A stretch of 64,000 bases of DNA from Neptunicoccus sediminis (GTDB taxonomy: Bacteria > Pseudomonadota > Alphaproteobacteria > Rhodobacterales > Rhodobacteraceae): positions 1 through 64,000 of the forward strand of contig NZ_MDVX01000012.1 in the NCBI RefSeq assembly GCF_001719615.1. The letters are read 5' to 3'. Below the pieces are notes generated by a model. That model ran no database searches. It was not told where the DNA came from and worked only from the letters and a program-made list of their open reading frames with translations. Below are positions 3,635 to 37,098 of this stretch, one piece after another. The position numbers and the translations under genes are program-made. Position 1 is the stretch's first letter, and every line of letters starts with the position of its first letter.

Positions 3635-5544
3635 GGATCGGGCTTTTCTGTACGGACGATTAGATCCGCAGACTCATTGGTGGGCGGAAAGTCGATTTCT
3701 TCGTCGTTTTCCACGATCTTGGTCAGATTGGACAGAAAACTGGTGTAGAGATCGGAGTTCACCTCCCGCGCGCGGGCAACGTATTTGTCGTTCTTTTCAT
3801 TTGGAAGATTCGGATCCCAAAGCCCGGCCAGTTCAGCCAGCGCGTGGCGGTCTGCTTCAAAGAACTGGTCGTGGGCGCGCTCGGCCTCATACTCCGGCCA
3901 GCCCATGCCTTGCAGCATCTTCTTGCCCGCCCGCATCGCGCTGTCAAAGGTTTCGCGGATGATTTCGTCCGCTCCGGCGCGGTACAGGTGATAGACGTGA
4001 TCCCGATCATAGGCGCGGGCGATTATGTAGAGATCCGGCCGCTCCTTGCGGGCGTGATCCACCAGCTTCACCGCAGCGTCCTTGTCATCCACTGCAACCA
4101 CCAGAATTTTCGCGGTCATCAATCCGGCCGCATGCATCATGTCGGGGCGGGTCGGATCACCGAAATACCCTTTCACCCCAAAGCGCCGCATGGCGTCGAT
4201 CTGGTCGATCTGATGGTCGATCACAACCGTCTTGATCCCTGTTGCCAGCGCAAGCCGGTTTACAATCTGCCCGAAACGACCGATGCCAGCGATGATGACA
4301 GTGCCTTCTTCGTCGATGGTGTCTTCTTCGCGGGTGTTCGGTGTTTCAACCAGTTTGCGCGAAACACGGTCGTAAAGGATGAACAACAAAGGTGTCAGCA
4401 GCATGGAAAGGGCGATGATCAGAAGCAACTGTTGGGACAGTGCAAAGGGGATCACGCTGGTTTGCACGGTGGTCGAGAGCATGACAAAGCCGAACTCCCC
4501 CGCTTGGGCCAGTGACAGGATGAACAGCCACTGGTCCCGCCCCTTCAGTTTGAACAGCACGCTTAAGCCCGCAAGCACCAGCCCCTTGATCAGCATCACG
4601 CTAAGCGTCATGCCAAGTATCCATGCCAGATGCTCCCACAGCACGGCAAAGTTGATCCCTGCACCTACGGTAATAAAGAACAGTCCCAGCAAAAGCCCCT
4701 TGAACGGCTGGATGTCGGTTTCCAGCTCGTGCCGGTATTCAGAGTTCGCCAGAACCACCCCGGCCAGAAAAGTTCCAAGCGCCGGAGACAGGCCAACCAG
4801 CGTCATCAACAGGGCAATCCCCACCACCAGCAACAACGCCACGGCGGTGAAAATCTCTGGCAGGCGGGCCTTGGCGATGAAGTGAAAAATCGGGCGGGTG
4901 CAATAAATCCCGAACAGGATCACCGCGCCAACCGCCCCGAGCGTGACCAGCGTCACCCCCCAACCCGGAAGTCCCGCGATCAGGGACATATCGGAATGAT
5001 CATCCCCGCCGTGGTTAAAGTTGCTGAAATCGCCCACAGCCAGCAGCGGAATCAGCGCCAGCATCGGGATCACGGCAATATCCTGTGTCAGCAGCACCGA
5101 AAACGCCGAACGCCCGCCGTGAGTTTGCATAAGACGCTTTTCGTTAAGCGTCTGCACCACGATCGCGGTCGAGGACAGGGCGAAAATCAGGCCGATTGCA
5201 ACAGAGATATTCCACGGCTGGCCAAAGGTGATAAACGCGGCACTGACCGCAAGTGTGGTTAACACCACCTGCAAGCCGCCCAGCCCGATCAGCCGGTGGC
5301 GCATCTCCCAGAGCGCCTTTGGCTCCAGTTCCAGCCCGACGATGAACAGCATCATCACCACGCCGAATTCGGCAAAATGTTGCAGGTCTTTGGTTTCGTT
5401 TCCCACCAGTCCGAAAACCGGCCCGATCAATACACCGGCCACCAGATAGCCGAGAATAGAGCCGAGACCGGCCCGTTTTGCCACCGGCACAGCGATGACA
5501 GCAGCGGCCAGATAGATCGAGGCCTGAAGGAGAAAACTTTCCAT
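3631..5544 (-). CDS. CPA2-family monovalent cation:proton antiporter, KefC/KefB-like
   Basis: The 637-residue inner-membrane protein has an N-terminal antiporter domain of roughly 12 helices (residues ~1-380, starting MESFLLQASIYLAAAV) followed by a soluble RCK/TrkA-N domain. That domain carries the dinucleotide-binding loop GIGRFGQ near residue 425 and an acidic-ended beta strand after it. This architecture fits K+/H+ or Na+/H+ exchange gated by nucleotides or redox ligands. The frame stays open upstream to 5691, but the ATG at 5544 has the best ribosome site (AGGAATTTT) and begins the conserved first helix. No KefF/KefG ancillary subunit is adjacent. Confidence 0.88.
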   Translation of the reverse strand: MESFLLQASIYLAAAVIAVPVAKRAGLGSILGYLVAGVLIGPVFGLVGNETKDLQHFAEFGVVMMLFIVGLELEPKALWEMRHRLIGLGGLQVVLTTLAVSAAFITFGQPWNISVAIGLIFALSSTAIVVQTLNEKRLMQTHGGRSAFSVLLTQDIAVIPMLALIPLLAVGDFSNFNHGGDDHSDMSLIAGLPGWGVTLVTLGAVGAVILFGIYCTRPIFHFIAKARLPEIFTAVALLLVVGIALLMTLVGLSPALGTFLAGVVLANSEYRHELETDIQPFKGLLLGLFFITVGAGINFAVLWEHLAWILGMTLSVMLIKGLVLAGLSVLFKLKGRDQWLFILSLAQAGEFGFVMLSTTVQTSVIPFALSQQLLLIIALSMLLTPLLFILYDRVSRKLVETPNTREEDTIDEEGTVIIAGIGRFGQIVNRLALATGIKTVVIDHQIDQIDAMRRFGVKGYFGDPTRPDMMHAAGLMTAKILVVAVDDKDAAVKLVDHARKERPDLYIIARAYDRDHVYHLYRAGADEIIRETFDSAMRAGKKMLQGMGWPEYEAERAHDQFFEADRHALAELAGLWDPNLPNEKNDKYVARAREVNSDLYTSFLSNLTKIVENDEEIDFPPTNESADLIVRTEKPDP

Positions 5545-25724: not shown

Positions 25725-25852
25725 GTTGAAAATGGAGCTGGAACAGTCTGTTGCTTTTTTGCTGGCGGCGGATTTTTTGTTGTTGGCTTGACTTTACCGG
25801 CACTGGCGCTGATGTCACTCTGGCATCAAAGAGCATCACAGGCAGGGCAATC

Positions 25853-27031
25853 GTGACAGAATACACACCGGATCCACAACTGCGCGCGGCGTTTCTGGGC
25901 GGCATGTCCCATGCGGCCTGTACGGTGAATATCGTAACCACAGACGGTGTTGCAGGGCGCGGCGGTGTGACGGTTTCGGCCATGACATCGGTGTCGGCGG
26001 ATTCCCCCAAACCGACCTTGCTGGTTTGTGTCCACCACGAGGCAAGTGCTGCACCGTTGATCCTTGAGAACGGCAATTTTTGTGTGAACCTGCTGCGGGA
26101 CGACCAGTCGTTTATTTCCGATACGTTTGCGGGGCGGTTCAAAGAGGAATTTGCAGATAAATTCGACTGCGCTGAGTGGGCGCCAATGGCCACAGGTGCG
26201 CCCCGTGTGGTGGACCCGCTGGTGGCTTTTGATTGTACATTGGTCAGCGCCGAGCGGATCGGCACCCATCACGTATTTGTCGGTGAAGTGCAGGATATTT
26301 TCACCGCGAACCGTGGGACGCCGCTGATTTATGCCAACCGTGCCTACGGGCGCACGGTGCGAATTGATCCGGTGACGACCTTTGCAACCTCCCAGTCCGA
26401 CACGGCCCTGCGGGTCGGGTGTTTTCACACCATAGGCCCCTTTGTTGTGCCCCGTATCATTGGCGAATTCACCAAGGACGACAGCACCGATTTGCGTCTG
26501 ATGGACGGGGATCACCGCCGCCTGATTGAAGGCTTGCGGGCCGGTGAGGTCGATCTGGCGTTGATGTTCGATCTTGACCTGCCGGACGATATTGAGACCG
26601 TGCCGCTTGCCAGTTTGGCACCCTATATTCTGCTGGCCGAAGATCATCCGCTGGCGGCAGAACCGAACCTGACGCTTGAGACACTGACCAAACATCCGAT
26701 GGTACTGCTGGATTCCGAGCCTTCAGCAGAATATGCCCTGTCGATTTTCGCCGCACAGCATCTGGCGCCGCAGGTCAAATACCACTGCCCGTCCTATGAG
26801 ATGGTGCGCGCAATGGTGGGGGAGGGGCTTGGCTATTCGTTGCTGGCCAGCAAACCGGCCAGCAATCTGAGCTATGACGGTCATTCACTGGTGACGCGCC
26901 CCTTGCCAGCGGACACCCGTCACTGTCCCACCGTTCTGGCCTACCGGCGGGACGCGGAGCTGCCCCCTGCGGCGCAACCGTTTATGGAACTTTGCAAGGA
27001 TCTGTTCACGTCACCGATCGAGCGGGTTTAA
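25853..27031 (+). CDS. Flavin reductase domain fused to LysR effector-binding domain
   Basis: The 392-residue protein joins two domains. Residues ~8-165 are a flavin reductase-like FMN-binding domain (FLGGMSHAACTVNIVTTDG, then VTVSAMTSVSADSPKPTLLVCVH, FCVNLLRDDQ and VGEVQDI). Residues ~178-385 are a LysR substrate-binding domain (ALRVGCFHTIGPFVVPRI, LRAGEVDLAL, MVRAMVGEGLGYSLL) without any helix-turn-helix. It probably supplies reduced flavin to a monooxygenase, with activity tuned by a small ligand. I chose the GTG at 25853 (GGCAGGGCAATC upstream); the frame opens earlier at 25751. No oxygenase partner is adjacent. Its TAA stop overlaps the stop of argE. Confidence 0.82.
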   Translation: MTEYTPDPQLRAAFLGGMSHAACTVNIVTTDGVAGRGGVTVSAMTSVSADSPKPTLLVCVHHEASAAPLILENGNFCVNLLRDDQSFISDTFAGRFKEEFADKFDCAEWAPMATGAPRVVDPLVAFDCTLVSAERIGTHHVFVGEVQDIFTANRGTPLIYANRAYGRTVRIDPVTTFATSQSDTALRVGCFHTIGPFVVPRIIGEFTKDDSTDLRLMDGDHRRLIEGLRAGEVDLALMFDLDLPDDIETVPLASLAPYILLAEDHPLAAEPNLTLETLTKHPMVLLDSEPSAEYALSIFAAQHLAPQVKYHCPSYEMVRAMVGEGLGYSLLASKPASNLSYDGHSLVTRPLPADTRHCPTVLAYRRDAELPPAAQPFMELCKDLFTSPIERV

Positions 27032-28338: not shown

Positions 28339-29106
28339 ATGGCAGCGCCAGTGAACAGACTGAAGGAAAACCTCGCGGCGGGGCAGTTGCAGACGGGCTG
28401 CTGGCTCGGGCTTGTGGCGCCCTATGTCAGCGAGATTGCGGGCACGGCGGGATTTGACTGGGTGCTGATTGACGGGGAACACGCCCCAAACGGGATCGGC
28501 CAGATTTCCAGCCAGATCGGGGCGTTGCAGGGATCGGATTCAGCCATTGCCGTGCGGGTGCCTGTGGGTGAGGACTGGATCATTAAACAGGTGCTGGACG
28601 CAGGGGCGCAGACCGTGATGGTGCCAATGGTTGAGACCGGCGCACAGGCGCAGGCAATGGTGCGTGCAACGCGCTATGCGCCCGATGGGGTGCGCGGTGT
28701 CGGGGCTTCGGTGGGGCGGGCGTCCCACTGGACCGGCATTGCCGATTATTCGACCACGGCCAATGCGCAAATCTGTCTGATTGTACAGGTAGAGGCGCAG
28801 CGCGGGATCGACAATCTTGACGATATTCTTGCGGTTGAGGGTGTGGACGCGGTCTTCATCGGGCCTGCGGATCTGGCGGCGGATATGGGCTATCTCGGGC
28901 AGCTGGACGCGCCCGAAGTGATGGCCGCGATGGAGGATGCGGTGCTGCGCATCCGCGCTGCGGGAAAATCCGCTGGCATCATGTGCACCGATCCCGAATT
29001 TGCGCGGCAGGCGATTGGTTGGGGCGTGAATTTTGCAGCCGTGGCGGTGGATGCGATCACACTGTCGAACGGTTTGCGCGCTGCTGCGCGCGCCTTCAAG
29101 GACTAG
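28339..29106 (+). CDS. HpcH/HpaI-type aldolase
   Basis: The 255-residue class II pyruvate aldolase cleaves 4-hydroxy-2-oxo acids such as 4-hydroxy-2-oxoheptanedioate. Key segments are DGEHAPN near residue 46, MVPMVET, the metal-binding Glu in VQVEAQRGIDN, and FIGPADLAADMG with its metal-binding Asp. The frame extends far upstream, but the ATG at 28339 after GGGAGGCAAGGACG is the family start. No homoprotocatechuate genes adjoin it, so the true substrate is open. It is the only gene between argE and the 2Fe-2S membrane protein. Confidence 0.9.
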   Translation: MAAPVNRLKENLAAGQLQTGCWLGLVAPYVSEIAGTAGFDWVLIDGEHAPNGIGQISSQIGALQGSDSAIAVRVPVGEDWIIKQVLDAGAQTVMVPMVETGAQAQAMVRATRYAPDGVRGVGASVGRASHWTGIADYSTTANAQICLIVQVEAQRGIDNLDDILAVEGVDAVFIGPADLAADMGYLGQLDAPEVMAAMEDAVLRIRAAGKSAGIMCTDPEFARQAIGWGVNFAAVAVDAITLSNGLRAAARAFKD

Positions 29107-29226
29107 GGCGGCAGGGGCAGGAAAACCTTGTTTCTTGTGCCTGTTTGGGGTTGGATCGAGGCAGAGTAATTTCAATCTGCCGCGCCCGCCCGAGCAGGGG
29201 GCGGCTTTAAATATGGATTTCGCCCG

Positions 29227-30387
29227 ATGCCTGACGCGCCGCCGGACCCTGTTCAACTGGCCGGACTGCGCCGTGGTTTGATGATTGGCAGCGGGCTGGT
29301 GATGTTTGCCTTTCTGACCTGCCATCTGACCAATCTTGCGCTGGGGCTGCATTCGGTTGCATTGATGGACAGTTGGCGCTGGGCGCTGAGCGGGCTTTGG
29401 ACGGGACCTGTGATGCGGGTCGTGCTGGGCACGGCGCTGGTGTTGCATTTTTCGATGGCGCTGGTGACGATTTACTGTCGCAATACTCTGCGACTGCCGT
29501 CTTATGATATGGCCCAGCTTGTGGCCGGAGTGCTGATCGTGCCGCTGCTGGCGCCCCATGTATTCGGAATCATGGCCTATCACCCGTTGGGCCTTGTCCC
29601 GACCTATGATCTGGTTTTGCGGTATTTCTGGACCCTGTCGCCCTTTGACGGGTTGCGACAGGTCGTGATGCTGGTGGTGGCGTGGCTGCACGGAACGATC
29701 GGGGTTTATACGTGGCTGCGGTCACGCGACGGATCGGCGCGCAGCTTGCGGGTTTTCTATCCCTTTGTTGTCATCGTGCCCGTGCTTGCGCTGCTTGGCT
29801 ATGTTGAGGCCGGACGGCAGATTATTCCTGTTGCAGAAGGGGGCGGCGGTTATGTGATGGCACAAGACCCCAATGCGGCTGGCATACAGGTCGCACCGCA
29901 AGAGGCCGCGCAGATCGTTGCACAGGCCAAGCGGAACGGCATCCTGACCGGAGAGGTGGCTCTGGTGTTGGTGGCGCTGGCCTTTGCGGCGCGGGCGTTG
30001 CGGATTGCGGCACAAAAACAGGGTCAGGTGCAGGTGACATATCTGGGGCGGCGCAAGGCTAGCTTTGCCGCGCAATCCGGTCTGACCCTGCTAGAGATGG
30101 CGCGACTGAATGACGTGCCCCATGCCAATGTCTGTCGCGGGCGGGGGCGCTGTGGCACCTGCCGTGTGCGGGTGTTGCAAGGGGCGCAACAGCTACCTCC
30201 TCCGGACGCGCGGGAGCAAAAGGTGCTCGACCACTGGAACGCCGCCCCGAACGAGCGGCTGGCTTGTCAGCTTTTGCCCGATCACGGGTTTCTGGAGGTA
30301 GAGCGCGTGGTGCAGCCCGATTACTCCGATCTGGATTATTCCGCAGCCCGCACGAAATCCACCCTGCCGCAAGGTAACACCCCATGA
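29227..30387 (+). CDS. Membrane histidine-rich anchor fused to 2Fe-2S ferredoxin domain
   Basis: This 386-residue protein has about six membrane helices in residues 17-255. Histidines lie in or next to the helices (His33, His42, His74, His111, His119, His155), a layout like the dihaem anchor of succinate dehydrogenase. A C-terminal ferredoxin domain follows (~268-360) with Cys303, Cys309, Cys312 and Cys347 (C-x5-C-x2-C-x34-C). The same anchor-plus-ferredoxin arrangement is known at the N-terminus of CyaC-type adenylyl cyclases of alphaproteobacteria, where a cyclase domain follows; here that domain is absent. The gene overlaps the downstream MscS gene by ATGA, so the two are translationally coupled. 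A membrane redox sensor is the inference. Confidence 0.78.
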   Translation: MPDAPPDPVQLAGLRRGLMIGSGLVMFAFLTCHLTNLALGLHSVALMDSWRWALSGLWTGPVMRVVLGTALVLHFSMALVTIYCRNTLRLPSYDMAQLVAGVLIVPLLAPHVFGIMAYHPLGLVPTYDLVLRYFWTLSPFDGLRQVVMLVVAWLHGTIGVYTWLRSRDGSARSLRVFYPFVVIVPVLALLGYVEAGRQIIPVAEGGGGYVMAQDPNAAGIQVAPQEAAQIVAQAKRNGILTGEVALVLVALAFAARALRIAAQKQGQVQVTYLGRRKASFAAQSGLTLLEMARLNDVPHANVCRGRGRCGTCRVRVLQGAQQLPPPDAREQKVLDHWNAAPNERLACQLLPDHGFLEVERVVQPDYSDLDYSAARTKSTLPQGNTP

Positions 30388-32762
30388 GCGGGCTGCCAGT
30401 GGTGCTGCGTGTCCTGCTGTTCGGTGTTGCGATAAGCTTGGGCCTGCTAGCGCCACCTGCATTGGCGCAAATGTTGCCCGCAACGCAAGGGGACGCGCAA
30501 ACACCCGCGGCGCCGGCGCAAGCCTCTCCCAATGACATACGAGAGTTGATGCGTCTGCTGGCCGATCCGCAGATACAGGACTGGCTGCAAGAGGCGGCAA
30601 ACCCCGCAGAGGGAGCGGCGGCACAGGCCGCCAGGACAAGCCTGCGCCAGAAGATAGAAGCACGGCTTGCGGCCTTCGGGGATCGCGTGCAGGCGCTCGG
30701 GCTTGCATGGCAGATCGTGCCGCGCATTCCCGAAGTGCTTGCGTCGCAATGGGAACGGCAACTGTCCCACGCCCAGAAGGTGCGCTCGCTGACCTATATC
30801 CTGACCTTTCTTGTGATTGGTTTCGGACTGGAATGGCTTTACCGCCGTTATATGAATTTGGTGCTGCTGCGGATTGAACTGGCCCCGAAAGAAGCACCGC
30901 TGCAAAAGCTGGCAGGGGCTGTGTCGCGTGCGGCGATCATTTCGGGCGGTTTGCTGGTCTTTGCCATTGGCAGTATCGGCGCGTTTGAGATGTTCGACTG
31001 GCATCCGCTGGTGCAATCCGTGGTGCTGGATTTTCTGACACTGGTGCTGGTGGTGCGGGTTGCGCTGACCCTGTCGCTGTTCTTTCAGGCACCTTTCGCA
31101 CCGGAGTTGCGTCTGGTGCCCTATGGCACGCCGGTTGCAAAACATCTGCACCGTTTGCTTTGGGTGTTGTCGGTGACGGTGGGGCTGGCGGTGGTGCTGA
31201 GCCTTGTGCTGGCGCGGATGTCTGCGTTTCAGGACGATGCGGCGGATTTGCAGGCGGTGGTACTCGCCCAGAGCGTGGCACTGGCCGGACTGGTGTTGCT
31301 GGCGGCTTGGGGCTGTATCTGGGTCGGGTTCCGCCGTGTGCCCCGACTGACGGCAGCGGCCTGCGACCCTGCTGTGACCCGTTTCTGGCGCAATTACGCG
31401 ATTGTCTGGGTTGGCGCTGTCTTCGGCTGCTGGCTGGTCGGGGCGTTTGCACTGATGTGGAGCGTGGTGATTGTCGGGTTTGTAGTGCCGGCGCTAAAGC
31501 TGCTGGCAGCGTGGATTGACCATTTCTTTGACCAGTCCACCGCCGCCCTTTATGAAGAGCACAAGACCGAAGCAGCGGCGGAACTGGCCGCTTTTGAAGC
31601 TGCCGAGGCTGCGCGACAGGCAGAGGCACCAGAGGCAGCAGCAGGGGCAGAGGACGCGACGGAAACAACGGACCCCGCACCGCCCGTGGCCCCGCCCGAC
31701 ATGCCGGAATTTCACGATCCCTATATTTCGACGCGGCCTATCGTGAAACGGGCCGCCCGTTTCGTGCTTTTGATTGCAGCGGTTTTCGCATTGGCGTCTG
31801 CATGGGGCATTAATATCTTTGCACTCTCGCAGGATCGCAGCGTGGCGGGGCGTGCGCTTGAGGTATTGGTGGACAGTTTTGTGGCCTTGCTCTTTGCCGA
31901 TCTGGTCTGGACTTGGGCCAAGACCCTGATCGACAAGCGGATCGCGGATTACGAGCCTCCGGTAGACGGGCAGGCCCCCGGACCGGAGGCGCGGATGATT
32001 ACGTTGCTGCCTTTGCTCCGCACGATCCTGCTGGTGACATTGCTGACGATGGTCAGCCTGAGCGTGCTGACCGCGCTGGGCGTGAACATTGCGCCGATCC
32101 TTGCGGGGGCGGGGATCCTTGGCATCGCCATCGGTTTTGGCACGCAGTCGCTGGTGCGCGATATTGTGGCGGGAATTTTCTTTCTTATCGACGATGCCTT
32201 CCGTCTGGGGGAATATATCGAGGTGGGGGATCTGGTAGGAACCGTAGAGAGCATCTCGATCCGGTCCATGCGCATCCGCCACCATCGCGGCAAGGTTCAT
32301 ACCGTGCCTTATGGCGAACTGAAGTCCCTGACCAACCATTCCCGCGACTGGGTGATCATGAAGCTGGAATTCCGCGTGCCCTTTGACACCGACCTGATGC
32401 TGGTGAAAAAGCTGATTAAGAAGGTGGGCGCAGAACTGAAGGCAAACGAACACTACGGGCCAAGCATCCTGTCCACGCTGAAATCCCAAGGCGTGCGTCG
32501 CATGGAGGAGTTCAACATGGTGGTGGGCGTCAAATTCATGACCAAACCGGGCGAACAATGGCTGGTGCGCCGTGATGCCTATCAGAAGGTGCGCGACATA
32601 TTCGAGGCCAATGGCATCCGCATGGCAGAGCGTAACGTGAAGGTCGAGATCGCAGGGGGCGAACATCTTGATCCCGAGGCGCAAAAGGCTGTGGCTGGCG
32701 CCGCGCAGGATGCCATCGAGAAACCCTCGGCTCCGCCAAAACCCGTTCCCGACGAACCGTAA
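30384..32762 (+). CDS. Large MscS-family mechanosensitive channel
   Basis: The 792-residue channel has a Sec signal peptide (cleavage near LAPPALAQ, residue 29), a periplasmic helical segment (~50-125), several extra membrane helices (~135-390), an Ala/Glu-rich cytoplasmic loop (~400-450), more helices, and then the MscS core. The pore helix is the glycine/alanine-rich ILAGAGILGIAIGFGTQSLVRDIVAG near residue 570, followed by the beta and C-terminal cage domains. It releases solutes on hypo-osmotic shock in small family members; large ones have varied roles. Translational coupling to the 2Fe-2S membrane protein is unusual and suggests linked function. Confidence 0.9.
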   Translation: MSGLPVVLRVLLFGVAISLGLLAPPALAQMLPATQGDAQTPAAPAQASPNDIRELMRLLADPQIQDWLQEAANPAEGAAAQAARTSLRQKIEARLAAFGDRVQALGLAWQIVPRIPEVLASQWERQLSHAQKVRSLTYILTFLVIGFGLEWLYRRYMNLVLLRIELAPKEAPLQKLAGAVSRAAIISGGLLVFAIGSIGAFEMFDWHPLVQSVVLDFLTLVLVVRVALTLSLFFQAPFAPELRLVPYGTPVAKHLHRLLWVLSVTVGLAVVLSLVLARMSAFQDDAADLQAVVLAQSVALAGLVLLAAWGCIWVGFRRVPRLTAAACDPAVTRFWRNYAIVWVGAVFGCWLVGAFALMWSVVIVGFVVPALKLLAAWIDHFFDQSTAALYEEHKTEAAAELAAFEAAEAARQAEAPEAAAGAEDATETTDPAPPVAPPDMPEFHDPYISTRPIVKRAARFVLLIAAVFALASAWGINIFALSQDRSVAGRALEVLVDSFVALLFADLVWTWAKTLIDKRIADYEPPVDGQAPGPEARMITLLPLLRTILLVTLLTMVSLSVLTALGVNIAPILAGAGILGIAIGFGTQSLVRDIVAGIFFLIDDAFRLGEYIEVGDLVGTVESISIRSMRIRHHRGKVHTVPYGELKSLTNHSRDWVIMKLEFRVPFDTDLMLVKKLIKKVGAELKANEHYGPSILSTLKSQGVRRMEEFNMVVGVKFMTKPGEQWLVRRDAYQKVRDIFEANGIRMAERNVKVEIAGGEHLDPEAQKAVAGAAQDAIEKPSAPPKPVPDEP

Positions 32763-32902
32763 CCCCGCGCGCAGCGACCCTATGGGGGATTTTTGCCGAT
32801 ACGGTAAATTCAACGGAATTTTCATGTGGTCTTTGCGCCCGATGCGCTAGATTGAAAAAGAAAAACGAGCAGAAAAATCCAACCGGAAACGTAGGGGGCA
32901 GC

Positions 32903-33715
32903 GTGCGGTATCTTATATTGTGTTTAATGGTCATTGGACTGGTCAGTTGCGGGAACAACCGACAGCAACAGGTGCCAAAGACAACCAAGGTTCAACCGCC
33001 ACCCGAAATGGTATCCGGTAATCCCAAATTTGCCGACAGCGATCCGGTGGAGTGGACCGGATCAAAGCCGTGGCACTATCCGGTGCACGGGGTGGATGTC
33101 TCGCGTTATCAGATCGGGTTGGACTGGGACCAGTTGCGGGCCAACCACATATCCTTTGGCTTTATCAAGGCGACGGAAGGGGGCGATCACACTGATCCCC
33201 AGTTCTACCACCACTGGCGCGAGGCGGCCCGCGTGGGCATTCCCCGCGGCGCATATCATTTCTATTATTTCTGCCGCACACCCGAAGAACAGGCCCGCTG
33301 GTTTATCCAGCATGTGCCCAAAGATCCCGGTGCCTTGCCGCCGGTTCTCGATATCGAATGGAACCACCAGTCGCGCACCTGCCGTTTGCGTCCTGACGGG
33401 GAAACCGTGCGCGATGACATGCGGACCTTCCTTCGGATCATTGAAGCCCATTACGGCAAGCGTCCGGTGATCTACACCACGCCGGATTTCTACAAGGAAA
33501 ACGATCTGGGGCGGTTGAACGGCTATCCTTACTGGCTGCGGTCGGTCGCGGATCACCCCTCCAAAGTCTATCCGGGAGAACGCTGGGTTTTCTGGCAGTA
33601 CAGCGGTACAGGCCGTGTTCCCGGATCGCCCGGCGACATTGATCTGAACGTGTTTGACGGGACGCCTGCGCTCTGGCGGATGTGGTTGGCGCAGAACGGG
33701 ATCGCCCTGCGCTAG
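32903..33715 (+). CDS. Lipoprotein glycoside hydrolase family 25 (lysozyme-like)
   Basis: A 270-residue lipoprotein with a short signal peptide and lipobox GLVSC (lipidated Cys16), then a GH25 muramidase domain from about residue 60. Catalytic-site strands are visible: HGVDVSRYQ with the conserved Asp, FGFIKATEGG, and VLDIEWN with the D-x-E pair. It would cut the N-acetylmuramic acid bond of peptidoglycan. I prefer the GTG at 32903 (TAGGGGGCAGC upstream), which makes an ideal lipoprotein signal; a TTG at 32852 would add 17 polar residues and has no ribosome site. Confidence 0.85.
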   Translation: MRYLILCLMVIGLVSCGNNRQQQVPKTTKVQPPPEMVSGNPKFADSDPVEWTGSKPWHYPVHGVDVSRYQIGLDWDQLRANHISFGFIKATEGGDHTDPQFYHHWREAARVGIPRGAYHFYYFCRTPEEQARWFIQHVPKDPGALPPVLDIEWNHQSRTCRLRPDGETVRDDMRTFLRIIEAHYGKRPVIYTTPDFYKENDLGRLNGYPYWLRSVADHPSKVYPGERWVFWQYSGTGRVPGSPGDIDLNVFDGTPALWRMWLAQNGIALR

Positions 33716-34505: not shown

Positions 34506-35867
34506 ATGGAACAGAGCTTTGCTACCAAGTCGGCGTTTCGCTTTGGCTACGGGTTTTCGCCAACGGATCGGGATGTCGCGGGCGTTGACGACCTGCTGGC
34601 GCAACTACGCGGCCCTGATCTCGGCGTGGCACAGTTTGCCGGACCGATGCTGGAAGAACGGCTGGCGATCCAACGGGCCTACCAGCAATTGCGCAACACG
34701 ATGAAAAAAGGCGATGACTCCGTCAAACCAGAACTGAAAAAGGCCACCCGCCTGCGCAACCGGATGCGCGGTGATGACACCCGCCACTTGTTCCAGCGCG
34801 CGATGATGGACGGACAGGGCTTTCGCGAGAGGATCGCCTTCTTCTGGATGGACCACTTTACAGTGATCCCCAAGGGGCGTGCGGGCAATGCGCTTTGGGG
34901 GAATTACATCGAAGAAGGATTGCGCCCCCATATCACCGCCAGTTTCGGGGATCTGCTGGTGTCCGCTGTAACCCATCCTTCGATGCTGATTTATCTTGAT
35001 CAGGTGCGCTCTACCGGACCGAACTCCGCAGTGGGCAAACGCAAGAAACAGGGGTTGAATGAAAACCTCGCCCGTGAGGTGCTGGAACTGCACACAATGG
35101 GCGTTGGCGGCGCCTATACCCAAAGCGATGTGCGCCAGTTGGCCGAACTGCTGACGGGGCTCGACTTTGACAAGAACGGTGCGAAATTCAACAAACGCAA
35201 GGCAGAGCCGGGGGCGGAAACCGTGCTTGGCAAAACCTATGGCGGCGATCCGGCGCAGCGTAGTCACATCGAGGCCTTCTTGCGCGATGTGGCCCGCCAT
35301 CCCGACACAGCCCGCCATATTGCCCGCAAGCTGGCGGTGCATTTTGTCTCTGACACGCCGGAACAATCGCTGATCGACCATATCGAACAGGCTTTCTTGC
35401 AAACCGACGGAGATCTGCCCAGCGTTTACGGTGCCATGCTCGACCATCCGTCCGCATGGGCCCCCTTGGGCCAGAAAACCAAGCAACCGTTTGATTTCAT
35501 GGTGTCAAGCTATCGGGCGCTTGGCGTCACACCGCAGGATTACAACAAACCCTCTAATGGGCAGATCAACAAACGGCTGATGCTGCCGATGCAGTTTATG
35601 GGTCAACCCCTGCGAAAAGCCCCCGGTCCCAACGGCTGGCCGGAAGAGGCCGAAGCCTGGATCACCCCGCAAGGGCTGGCAGGGCGGCTGCAATGGTCTT
35701 TGTCCACCACCACCCGCTGGGGGCAGGATCTGGACCCGCGCGAATTTATCAACACCGCCCTGCGCGAACTGCCCGGTGGCACGCTCAAATTTGCCGTAGC
35801 CGGCGCGGAACGGCGCGTTGAGGGGCTGACGCTTGTGCTCGCCTCGCCCGAATTTAACAGGAGATAG
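34506..35867 (+). CDS. DUF1800 family protein
   Basis: The 453-residue protein matches DUF1800: FSPTDRD...DDLLAQL at the start, RIAFFWMDHFTV near residue 115, NLAREVLELHTMGVGGAYTQSDVRQLAELLTG near 190-220, and HPDTARHIARKLAVHFV near 260. The family has no proven activity and is nearly always paired with a DUF1501 protein, as here, four bases downstream. No signal peptide is visible, so it may travel with its Tat-exported partner or stay cytoplasmic. The start ATG is at 34506 with a weak AAGGATACGGG site. Confidence 0.9.
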   Translation: MEQSFATKSAFRFGYGFSPTDRDVAGVDDLLAQLRGPDLGVAQFAGPMLEERLAIQRAYQQLRNTMKKGDDSVKPELKKATRLRNRMRGDDTRHLFQRAMMDGQGFRERIAFFWMDHFTVIPKGRAGNALWGNYIEEGLRPHITASFGDLLVSAVTHPSMLIYLDQVRSTGPNSAVGKRKKQGLNENLAREVLELHTMGVGGAYTQSDVRQLAELLTGLDFDKNGAKFNKRKAEPGAETVLGKTYGGDPAQRSHIEAFLRDVARHPDTARHIARKLAVHFVSDTPEQSLIDHIEQAFLQTDGDLPSVYGAMLDHPSAWAPLGQKTKQPFDFMVSSYRALGVTPQDYNKPSNGQINKRLMLPMQFMGQPLRKAPGPNGWPEEAEAWITPQGLAGRLQWSLSTTTRWGQDLDPREFINTALRELPGGTLKFAVAGAERRVEGLTLVLASPEFNRR

Positions 35868-35871
35868 GCCG

Positions 35872-37098
35872 ATGGACGCTTCAAGACGCAAGTTTCTGGC
35901 ACAAACCCTCGCCCTTGGGTGTTCGGCTGCGGCCAGCCCGCTGGTTACGCCTGTGACCTTCGCTTCGATTCCGTCTGACAACCGACTGGTAGTCATCGTG
36001 CTGCGCGGGGCGATGGACGGGCTCGACATCTGTGCGCCCCTTGGCGATCCCCTGTTCACACAGTACCGCCCCGGCCTGACCAAGCGAGAGTTCCGCGATC
36101 TGGACGGGTATTTCGCGCTGAATGAAAACCTTGCCGATCTGATGCCGCTTTGGAAAGCGGGGGAACTGGGCTTTGTGCAGGCCGTGTCAACGCCTTACCG
36201 CGACAAGCGCAGCCATTTTGACGGGCAGGACCTGCTAGAGGCGGGACTGGCGGAAACAGGCGGCAATGTGCGGGAAAGTGGCTGGATCAACCGGATGCTC
36301 TCGCTTATTCCGGGCGCGGAACAGGACAGCGCCTTTTCTGTCGGGCGCGAAAGCATGCTGATCCTGCGGGGCGATTTTCCGGTAACAAGCTGGGCACCGG
36401 AAAGCCGTGTGGATATGTCCCCCCACGGGCAGCTGTTGCTTGATGCCATCTATGCCAAAGACCCGTTGTTCGCACAGGCCGGACAGACGGCGCTGACACT
36501 GGCGGCACAATTGTCGATGGCGCAGATGGAAGGCGATGCAGAGGACGAGGACGGCGAGATGATGGCCGAAATGCTCAAGAGCATGAAATCCTCACAGGCG
36601 GCACAACAGGCCAGCGGTCTCGCGGCCTTCGCAGCAGAACGTCTGAAAGAGGACACCCGTTTTGCAACGTTTTCCATCGGTGGCTGGGATACCCATTTGC
36701 GGCAGGATCGTTCGATCCGCAATGCGTCCAAGGAGTTACAGGCCGCATTGCTGACCCTGCATGAACAGCTCGGTCCGGTTTGGGACAAAACCTGCGTGCT
36801 GTGCCTGACTGAGTTTGGCCGCACCGTGCGGGAAAACGGCTCAGGCGGGACCGATCACGGCACAGGCGGAGCGATGATTATGGCGGGTGGCGCGATCAAG
36901 GGACGCAAGGTCTACGGCGACTGGCCGGGGCTGGAGGATGCCGCCCTGTACGAGCAGCGCGACCTGATGCCCACCGCCGACCTGCGCCGCTACGCCGGAT
37001 GGGCTGCCCATGACCTGTTCGGCCTCTCTGTGGCGCAAATCGAAAGCACTGTCTTCCCCGGCGTGGACATGTTCCAGAACCCCGGCTTCCTGCGCTAA
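35872..37098 (+). CDS. DUF1501 family Tat-exported protein
   Basis: The 408-residue protein starts with a twin-arginine signal (SRRKFLAQTLALG, cleavage near VTFA at about residue 29). The mature part has the alkaline-phosphatase-like DUF1501 fold features: LVVIVLRGAMDGLD, KRSHFDGQD, FSIGGWDTH near residue 265, LCLTEFGRTV, and GGTDHGTGGAMIMAGG. Those Asp/His/Glu positions suggest a metal site. Members are sulfatase- or phosphatase-like proteins of unknown substrate. An AGGAGATAGGCCG site precedes the ATG four bases after the DUF1800 stop, so the two genes form one transcription unit. Confidence 0.92.
   Translation: MDASRRKFLAQTLALGCSAAASPLVTPVTFASIPSDNRLVVIVLRGAMDGLDICAPLGDPLFTQYRPGLTKREFRDLDGYFALNENLADLMPLWKAGELGFVQAVSTPYRDKRSHFDGQDLLEAGLAETGGNVRESGWINRMLSLIPGAEQDSAFSVGRESMLILRGDFPVTSWAPESRVDMSPHGQLLLDAIYAKDPLFAQAGQTALTLAAQLSMAQMEGDAEDEDGEMMAEMLKSMKSSQAAQQASGLAAFAAERLKEDTRFATFSIGGWDTHLRQDRSIRNASKELQAALLTLHEQLGPVWDKTCVLCLTEFGRTVRENGSGGTDHGTGGAMIMAGGAIKGRKVYGDWPGLEDAALYEQRDLMPTADLRRYAGWAAHDLFGLSVAQIESTVFPGVDMFQNPGFLR

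Follow-up and report, generated by a model that had tools for sequence, protein, structure and literature searches.

What does a redox-sensing membrane module of the kind that precedes CyaC-type adenylate cyclases do when it carries no cyclase and its gene runs directly into a gene for an MscS-type channel? The question is raised by two adjacent genes of Neptunicoccus sediminis (Rhodobacteraceae) in the 64,000-nt stretch of contig NZ_MDVX01000012.1 analyzed here, which is referred to as the window. The first (the sensor gene) encodes a membrane protein with a 2Fe-2S domain, and the second (the channel gene) encodes a large member of the MscS superfamily (Table 1). We consider a sensor-channel unit, i.e., a redox-responsive channel complex encoded by the two genes, to be the best explanation, and hold it with evenly balanced confidence. 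Gene structure, ligand conservation, strict pairing, and the shared history of the two genes, on which the argument draws, are observations of this analysis.

Hydropathy averaged over an alignment of 23 sensors gives six membrane segments, approximately at residues 11-47, 59-85, 90-122, 134-166, and 170-200 for the first five and 236-262 for the sixth, followed by a Fer2 domain at residues 276-351 (Pfam, E 3.7e-10). Segments 1-4 each contain one invariant histidine (H33, H74, H111, and H155), positions that we equate with those of the four residues binding haem in the di-haem anchor of fumarate reductase; in the Wolinella enzyme these, too, lie on the first four helices. The sequence CGTC, characteristic of the subfamily, occupies residues 309-312. 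The Guanylate_cyc catalytic domain, present in a fused relative, is absent from the window sensor, in which Pfam revealed no output, DNA-binding, or catalytic domain. A first-pass annotation of this DNA had described a six-helix, CyaC-like anchor with a C-terminal 2Fe-2S domain and no cyclase, and had placed the cysteines at 303, 309, 312, and 347; both descriptions agree with the sequence and the alignment. Its term "histidine-rich" is put more precisely as the four invariant residues.

Tool support for kinship of the membrane part with the anchors of succinate dehydrogenase (SDH) and fumarate reductase is modest. The Pfam model Sdh_cyt matches the membrane parts of 17 of 58 relatives (best E 3.8e-05) and gives no match at E up to 1 in the membrane part of the window sensor. 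When a profile of the membrane part was run against the PDB (E up to 10), only two sequences matched, both weakly: an SDH subunit C (6lum_C, E 0.053) and a fumarate reductase chain (5xmj_C, E 2.8). Unlike these anchors, the sensor is not bound to a dehydrogenase, and it has a sixth helix as well as a 2Fe-2S domain within the same chain. Neither protein of the pair matched an NCBIfam family above its cut-off.

Conservation of the putative ligands is complete wherever it could be scored. H74, H111, H155, and all four cysteines are kept in 27/27 cyclase-free sensors, and H33 in all 26 with data, the 27th being truncated where its contig begins; the same eight residues are kept in 36/36 cyclase-fused rows, to which the window sensor is 29-39% identical over the common part. 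Residues D94, P179, and G310 are found in 23/23 cyclase-free sensors, at positions where most fused rows carry E, A/G, and S/T, respectively. Since the redox ligands are kept and these three residues are subfamily-specific, the alignment marks the cyclase-free sensor as a maintained redox protein of a distinct subfamily. In two close relatives, Amylibacter cionae and a Rhodobacteraceae metagenome-assembled genome, the sensors are 81 and 78% identical to the window protein.

Elsewhere, full-length relatives of the sensor are nearly all CyaC-like, the sensor module leading into the tail of a class III cyclase. Sinorhizobium meliloti CyaC is described as a protein with two haems b, oxidised or reduced by ubiquinone, and a 2Fe-2S cluster (PMC10463352), and a ferredoxin domain and four histidines are ascribed to the class IIIb cyclase cluster (PMC4821796). 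The order of parts is the same in the window sensor, i.e., six membrane segments with four histidines and then the 2Fe-2S domain; the differences are that it lacks the cyclase, that a separate gene encodes an MscS partner, and that it falls on the other side of the sensor tree. In that tree (115 rows, quick method, unrooted), one branch separates 23 cyclase-free sensors from 92 fused ones (SH-like approximate likelihood ratio test support 97). The statement in the first-pass annotation that the cyclase "is missing" holds for the domain itself; with an unrooted tree, loss is only one possible direction of change.

The sensor could instead be an electron-transfer enzyme that connects quinone with a soluble partner of the 2Fe-2S domain, a reaction that the channel would serve by passing a substrate, product, or ion; the sensor would then not regulate gating. 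Invariance of the haem and cluster ligands would suit such an enzyme, as would the Fer2 profile, which resembles electron carriers (NqrF and ISC ferredoxin are among its matches, and PDB ferredoxins were matched as well); quinone-linked di-haem anchors mostly serve enzymes. Against this, the protein consists of the membrane part and the 2Fe-2S domain only, with no catalytic domain recognized by Pfam and no third gene conserved beside the pair, and its nearest relatives are cyclase sensors rather than enzymes. We therefore regard the enzyme-plus-channel explanation as unlikely, though it is one of the two main rivals.

How strictly the sensor and the channel are paired was surveyed in samples of genomes rather than in all genomes, with 1,932 genome look-ups, repeats included: 33 genomes of the window genus, 295 of the family, 292 of the order, 385 of the class, and 398 of the phylum, as well as 39 and 43 from the family and order of genome G384 and 19 from the genus of G1225. 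The class search was drawn twice, largely from the same genomes, and the second draw added no cyclase-free sensor; the phylum search (398 genomes) yielded none beyond G000 and G055. Cyclase-free sensors that allowed a judgment number 27, with 10 from the window genus, 15 from elsewhere in the family, and 2 (G384 and G1056) from a family of another order; three undecided cases (G540, G1068, and G1075), cut by contig ends, were excluded. In 27/27 cases, more than chance would give, an MscS gene lies directly behind the sensor gene on the same strand, and in 27/27 the stop and start codons overlap, as ATGA (20), GTGA (5), or TTGATG (2), with start codons inferred. The first-pass annotation had made its proposal depend on the adjacency reaching beyond this strain and on the ligands being retained in orthologs, and both were found. 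Within the window genus, full-length sensors and full-length channel orthologs (>50% identity) occur in the same 10/33 genomes, and 0/33 genomes contain only one of the two. The distribution of the pair is patchy (13/292 order genomes, 9/19 in the genus of G1225).

Several further candidates for cyclase-free sensors were rejected: in G403 and G669 the cyclase follows in another frame, in G554 and G609 cyclase residues continue in frame up to a contig edge, in G688 the tail contains a cyclase motif at a contig end, and in G1054 and the fragment on contig C380 of G1056 a cyclase is present. Fused status was assigned to 93 loci by frame length and alignment; for many hits it rests on the length of the open frame, and cyclase-like tails were inspected by motif and by eye for a subset. 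The CyaC-like sensor and cyclase parts that lie in different frames in G403 (L126, 5845-7568) and G669 (L127, 5697-7477) reflect sequencing error or decay. One fused sensor (G175:C1:3704296-3705249) was matched in two pieces around residues 198-245, which points to an unusual linker before the sixth helix.

Such frameshifted loci, and the resemblance of the sensor to the front part of CyaC without its cyclase, could suggest a broken or decaying CyaC that lies by chance before a channel gene. For the 27 sensors this is refuted, and generally it has next to no probability: they come from 27 genomes of two families, retain invariant ligands and the three subfamily residues, and occupy one side of the tree.

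A more probable alternative, which is nonetheless unlikely in our judgment and ranks first among the rivals, is that both genes are merely expressed together because they are needed in one situation, for example respiration during osmotic change, and that their products do not touch. Adjacency and overlap by themselves demonstrate co-translation only, and co-inheritance would account for congruent trees. What speaks for more than this is that the pairing holds in 27/27 cases despite turnover of the flanks, with an overlap in all and no third gene kept; a stop/start overlap usually marks subunits or direct partners.

The neighborhood and the controls set these numbers in context. Flanking genes turn over: the aldolase and the hydrolase that border the pair in the window recur in only 6/23 pair loci, and no other neighbor does so more often, antisense shadow frames inside the channel gene being set aside in this count. 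No conserved third gene or regulator gene stands beside the pair in the 23 loci. MscS genes were found near none of the cyclase-fused sensors examined (0/20 loci; 9-kb stretches, 21 channel queries, E up to 1e-4), and 15/16 unpaired MscS paralogs, taken from both paired and unpaired genomes, have no sensor match in a 6-8 kb stretch. The exception is found on a G1056 contig, where a cyclase-fused sensor lies at some distance upstream of the MscS gene, in the same orientation. On this contig (C380; L249, 1-6000), the fused sensor fragment lies at the contig start and the distant unpaired MscS gene (match at 4445-4990) a few kilobases off, an arrangement that is possibly a looser link between the sensor and channel families. 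G1135, G1147, and G1255 each encode a separate fused sensor in addition to the paired, cyclase-free one, so in these three genomes the paired form does not simply replace the fused form.

Residues 547-747 of the channel protein comprise three Pfam modules of the MscS type (PF21088, PF00924, and PF21082, all above cut-off), in agreement, together with the open reading frames, with the initial description of a 792-residue MscS channel gene overlapping by ATGA. Its best NCBIfam model is PRK11465, for YbiO-type channels (E 9.2e-53, residues 455-759, 179.6 bits, under the curated cut-off of 596), and the closest PDB entries to its core are 9go3 and 7a46 (E about 2e-43, aligned over residues 454-755). 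Unlike its MscS relatives, it has an N-terminal half unmatched by the PRK11465 and PDB models, belongs to a separate clade of paired channels, and has a redox partner gene. Hydropathy suggests about ten or eleven hydrophobic segments, the number being uncertain, after a signal-peptide-like start. Eleven positions, including R134, W151, W206, P208, P525, and R706, are identical in 23/23 paired channels, recur in no more than 4 of the 16 unpaired channels, and are candidates for contact or for subfamily-specific gating. Two other ideas were given up: a docking role for the acidic loop 384-450, which is largely absent in the two pairs from the other family, and a redox site at histidines 633/634, which are conserved, yet common in unpaired paralogs (13 and 11 of 16).

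The two genes share a history. In the channel tree, 21 paired channels form a clade supported at 100/100, and a more inclusive group, supported at 98/96, adds the two distant paired channels together with one unpaired G1056 channel; the placement of the distant ones is unsure because of long branches. Sensor and channel trees of 22 pairs have 16/19 splits in common, the other three having weak to moderate support (34/0 to 88/94). The mirror distance correlation is r 0.965 without G384, a value reached in 0/2000 permutations. This congruence signifies joint inheritance and is not by itself a sign of contact.

Several points weigh against a sensor-channel complex. Linked genes that are inherited together give congruent trees without interacting, and the mirror correlation falls to 0.82 once G384 is included. 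The link across families rests on two divergent pairs, with channels about 40-42% identical over the core, and the unpaired G1056 MscS groups with these two channels (support 81/47). The loop 384-450 is variable and mostly missing in the same two pairs. The channel contains no conserved cysteine, and with histidines 633/634 shared by unpaired paralogs, no electron acceptor is visible in it.

For the redox-responsive complex, the following mechanism may be envisaged. By analogy with CyaC, the sensor would sit in the inner membrane, its four histidines binding two b haems and its 2Fe-2S cluster facing the cytosol, and would exchange electrons with the quinone pool; electrons passing to or from quinone would set the state of the two haems and the cluster. 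As the sensor has neither a cyclase nor a further output domain and no third gene is conserved with the pair, its signal would most simply go to the channel translated in step, and the lack of another output domain together with the strict coupling suggests a contact between the two proteins, through which the redox state might raise or lower the tension needed for opening. In MscS-type channels, paddle helices sense tension and the pore module conducts (PMC12375004); a membrane partner beside the paddle could therefore shift the threshold. In full, a quinone-poised di-haem/2Fe-2S protein would bind the MscS-type channel and set its opening threshold, placing solute or ion release under the control of the state of the respiratory chain; we advance this tentatively, at somewhat less than even confidence. 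Tuning of channel expression, which the first-pass annotation had offered beside gating, is less likely, since Pfam recognized no output or DNA-binding domain in the sensor and no conserved regulator gene stands beside the pair.

The signal might also run in the opposite direction, with the channel sensing tension and altering how electrons flow through the haem protein or how it reacts with quinone. The same pairing data fit this, and MscS paddles are tension sensors (PMC12375004); in CyaC, however, the anchor does the sensing for an output (PMC10463352), and the window channel retains the MscS pore core, which makes the reversed direction distinctly improbable.

Other inputs to the MscS fold have already been proposed, as titles cited in PMC4560390 indicate, for the bacterial cyclic-nucleotide-gated (bCNG) channels, which combine an MscS core with a cyclic-nucleotide-binding domain. 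Something other than tension probably controls when these channels open; the bCNG signal domain is fused and ligand-binding, whereas the signal protein in the window is separate and of redox type. No description of the sensor-MscS pair was found in the open-access literature, which omits most subscription papers; as far as searched there, both parts are of known kinds and their conserved combination is undescribed.

Table 1. Features of the sensor-channel locus (window coordinates)
Feature	Position	Strand	Basis
Sensor gene, cyclase-free redox-sensor protein, 386 residues	29227..30387	+	Open reading frame; six membrane segments then 2Fe-2S domain; kept in 27 genomes
Channel gene, MscS-superfamily channel, 792 residues	30384..32762	+	Open reading frame; Pfam, NCBIfam, and PDB matches
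ATGA junction, channel start codon over sensor stop codon	30384..30387	+	Open reading frame coordinates; pair survey
Sensor residues 11-200, first five membrane segments with putative di-haem ligands H33, H74, H111, H155	29257..29826	+	Hydropathy; invariance
Sensor residues 236-262, sixth membrane segment, running into the 2Fe-2S domain	29932..30012	+	Hydropathy
Sensor residues 276-351, 2Fe-2S (Fer2) domain, C303/C309/C312/C347	30052..30279	+	Pfam; PDB ferredoxins; conservation
Channel residues 1-28, signal-peptide-like N-terminus	30384..30467	+	Hydropathy and first residues, judged by eye
Channel residues 384-450, charged Ala/Glu/Pro-rich loop ahead of the core helices	31533..31733	+	Alignment
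Channel residues 547-747, MscS core (pore helices, beta domain, C-terminal domain)	32022..32624	+	Pfam

In the window, the pair is flanked by genes for an HpcH/HpaI aldolase upstream and a glycosyl hydrolase 25 protein downstream (Pfam). No promoter was recognized upstream of the pair, the single promoter-like site in 28900-33000 (0.9 expected) being inside the channel gene. Two kilobases downstream, a DUF1800 gene and a DUF1501 gene are arranged head to tail with an overlap (34506-37098, + strand). A 426-residue frame at 25751-27031 (+ strand) combines a flavin-reductase-like domain (residues 52-201, E 5.8e-32) with a LysR substrate-binding domain (residues 217-418, E 1.4e-38), and a domain search found no DNA-binding part in it; a similar frame adjoins the pair in G295 and G305.

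If the redox-responsive complex is real, it would link the redox state of the respiratory chain directly to a membrane channel, with no second messenger. It would also provide a metabolic input for MscS-type channels and make the role of their large, little-understood relatives testable; with only two genes, the pair is small and transferable to laboratory Escherichia coli. One sensor family would then have two unrelated outputs, cyclic AMP where it is fused to a cyclase and a channel where it is paired with MscS, giving an experimental handle on how such anchors signal. The conserved overlapping pair suggests that some alphaproteobacteria may adjust a membrane channel to their respiratory state.

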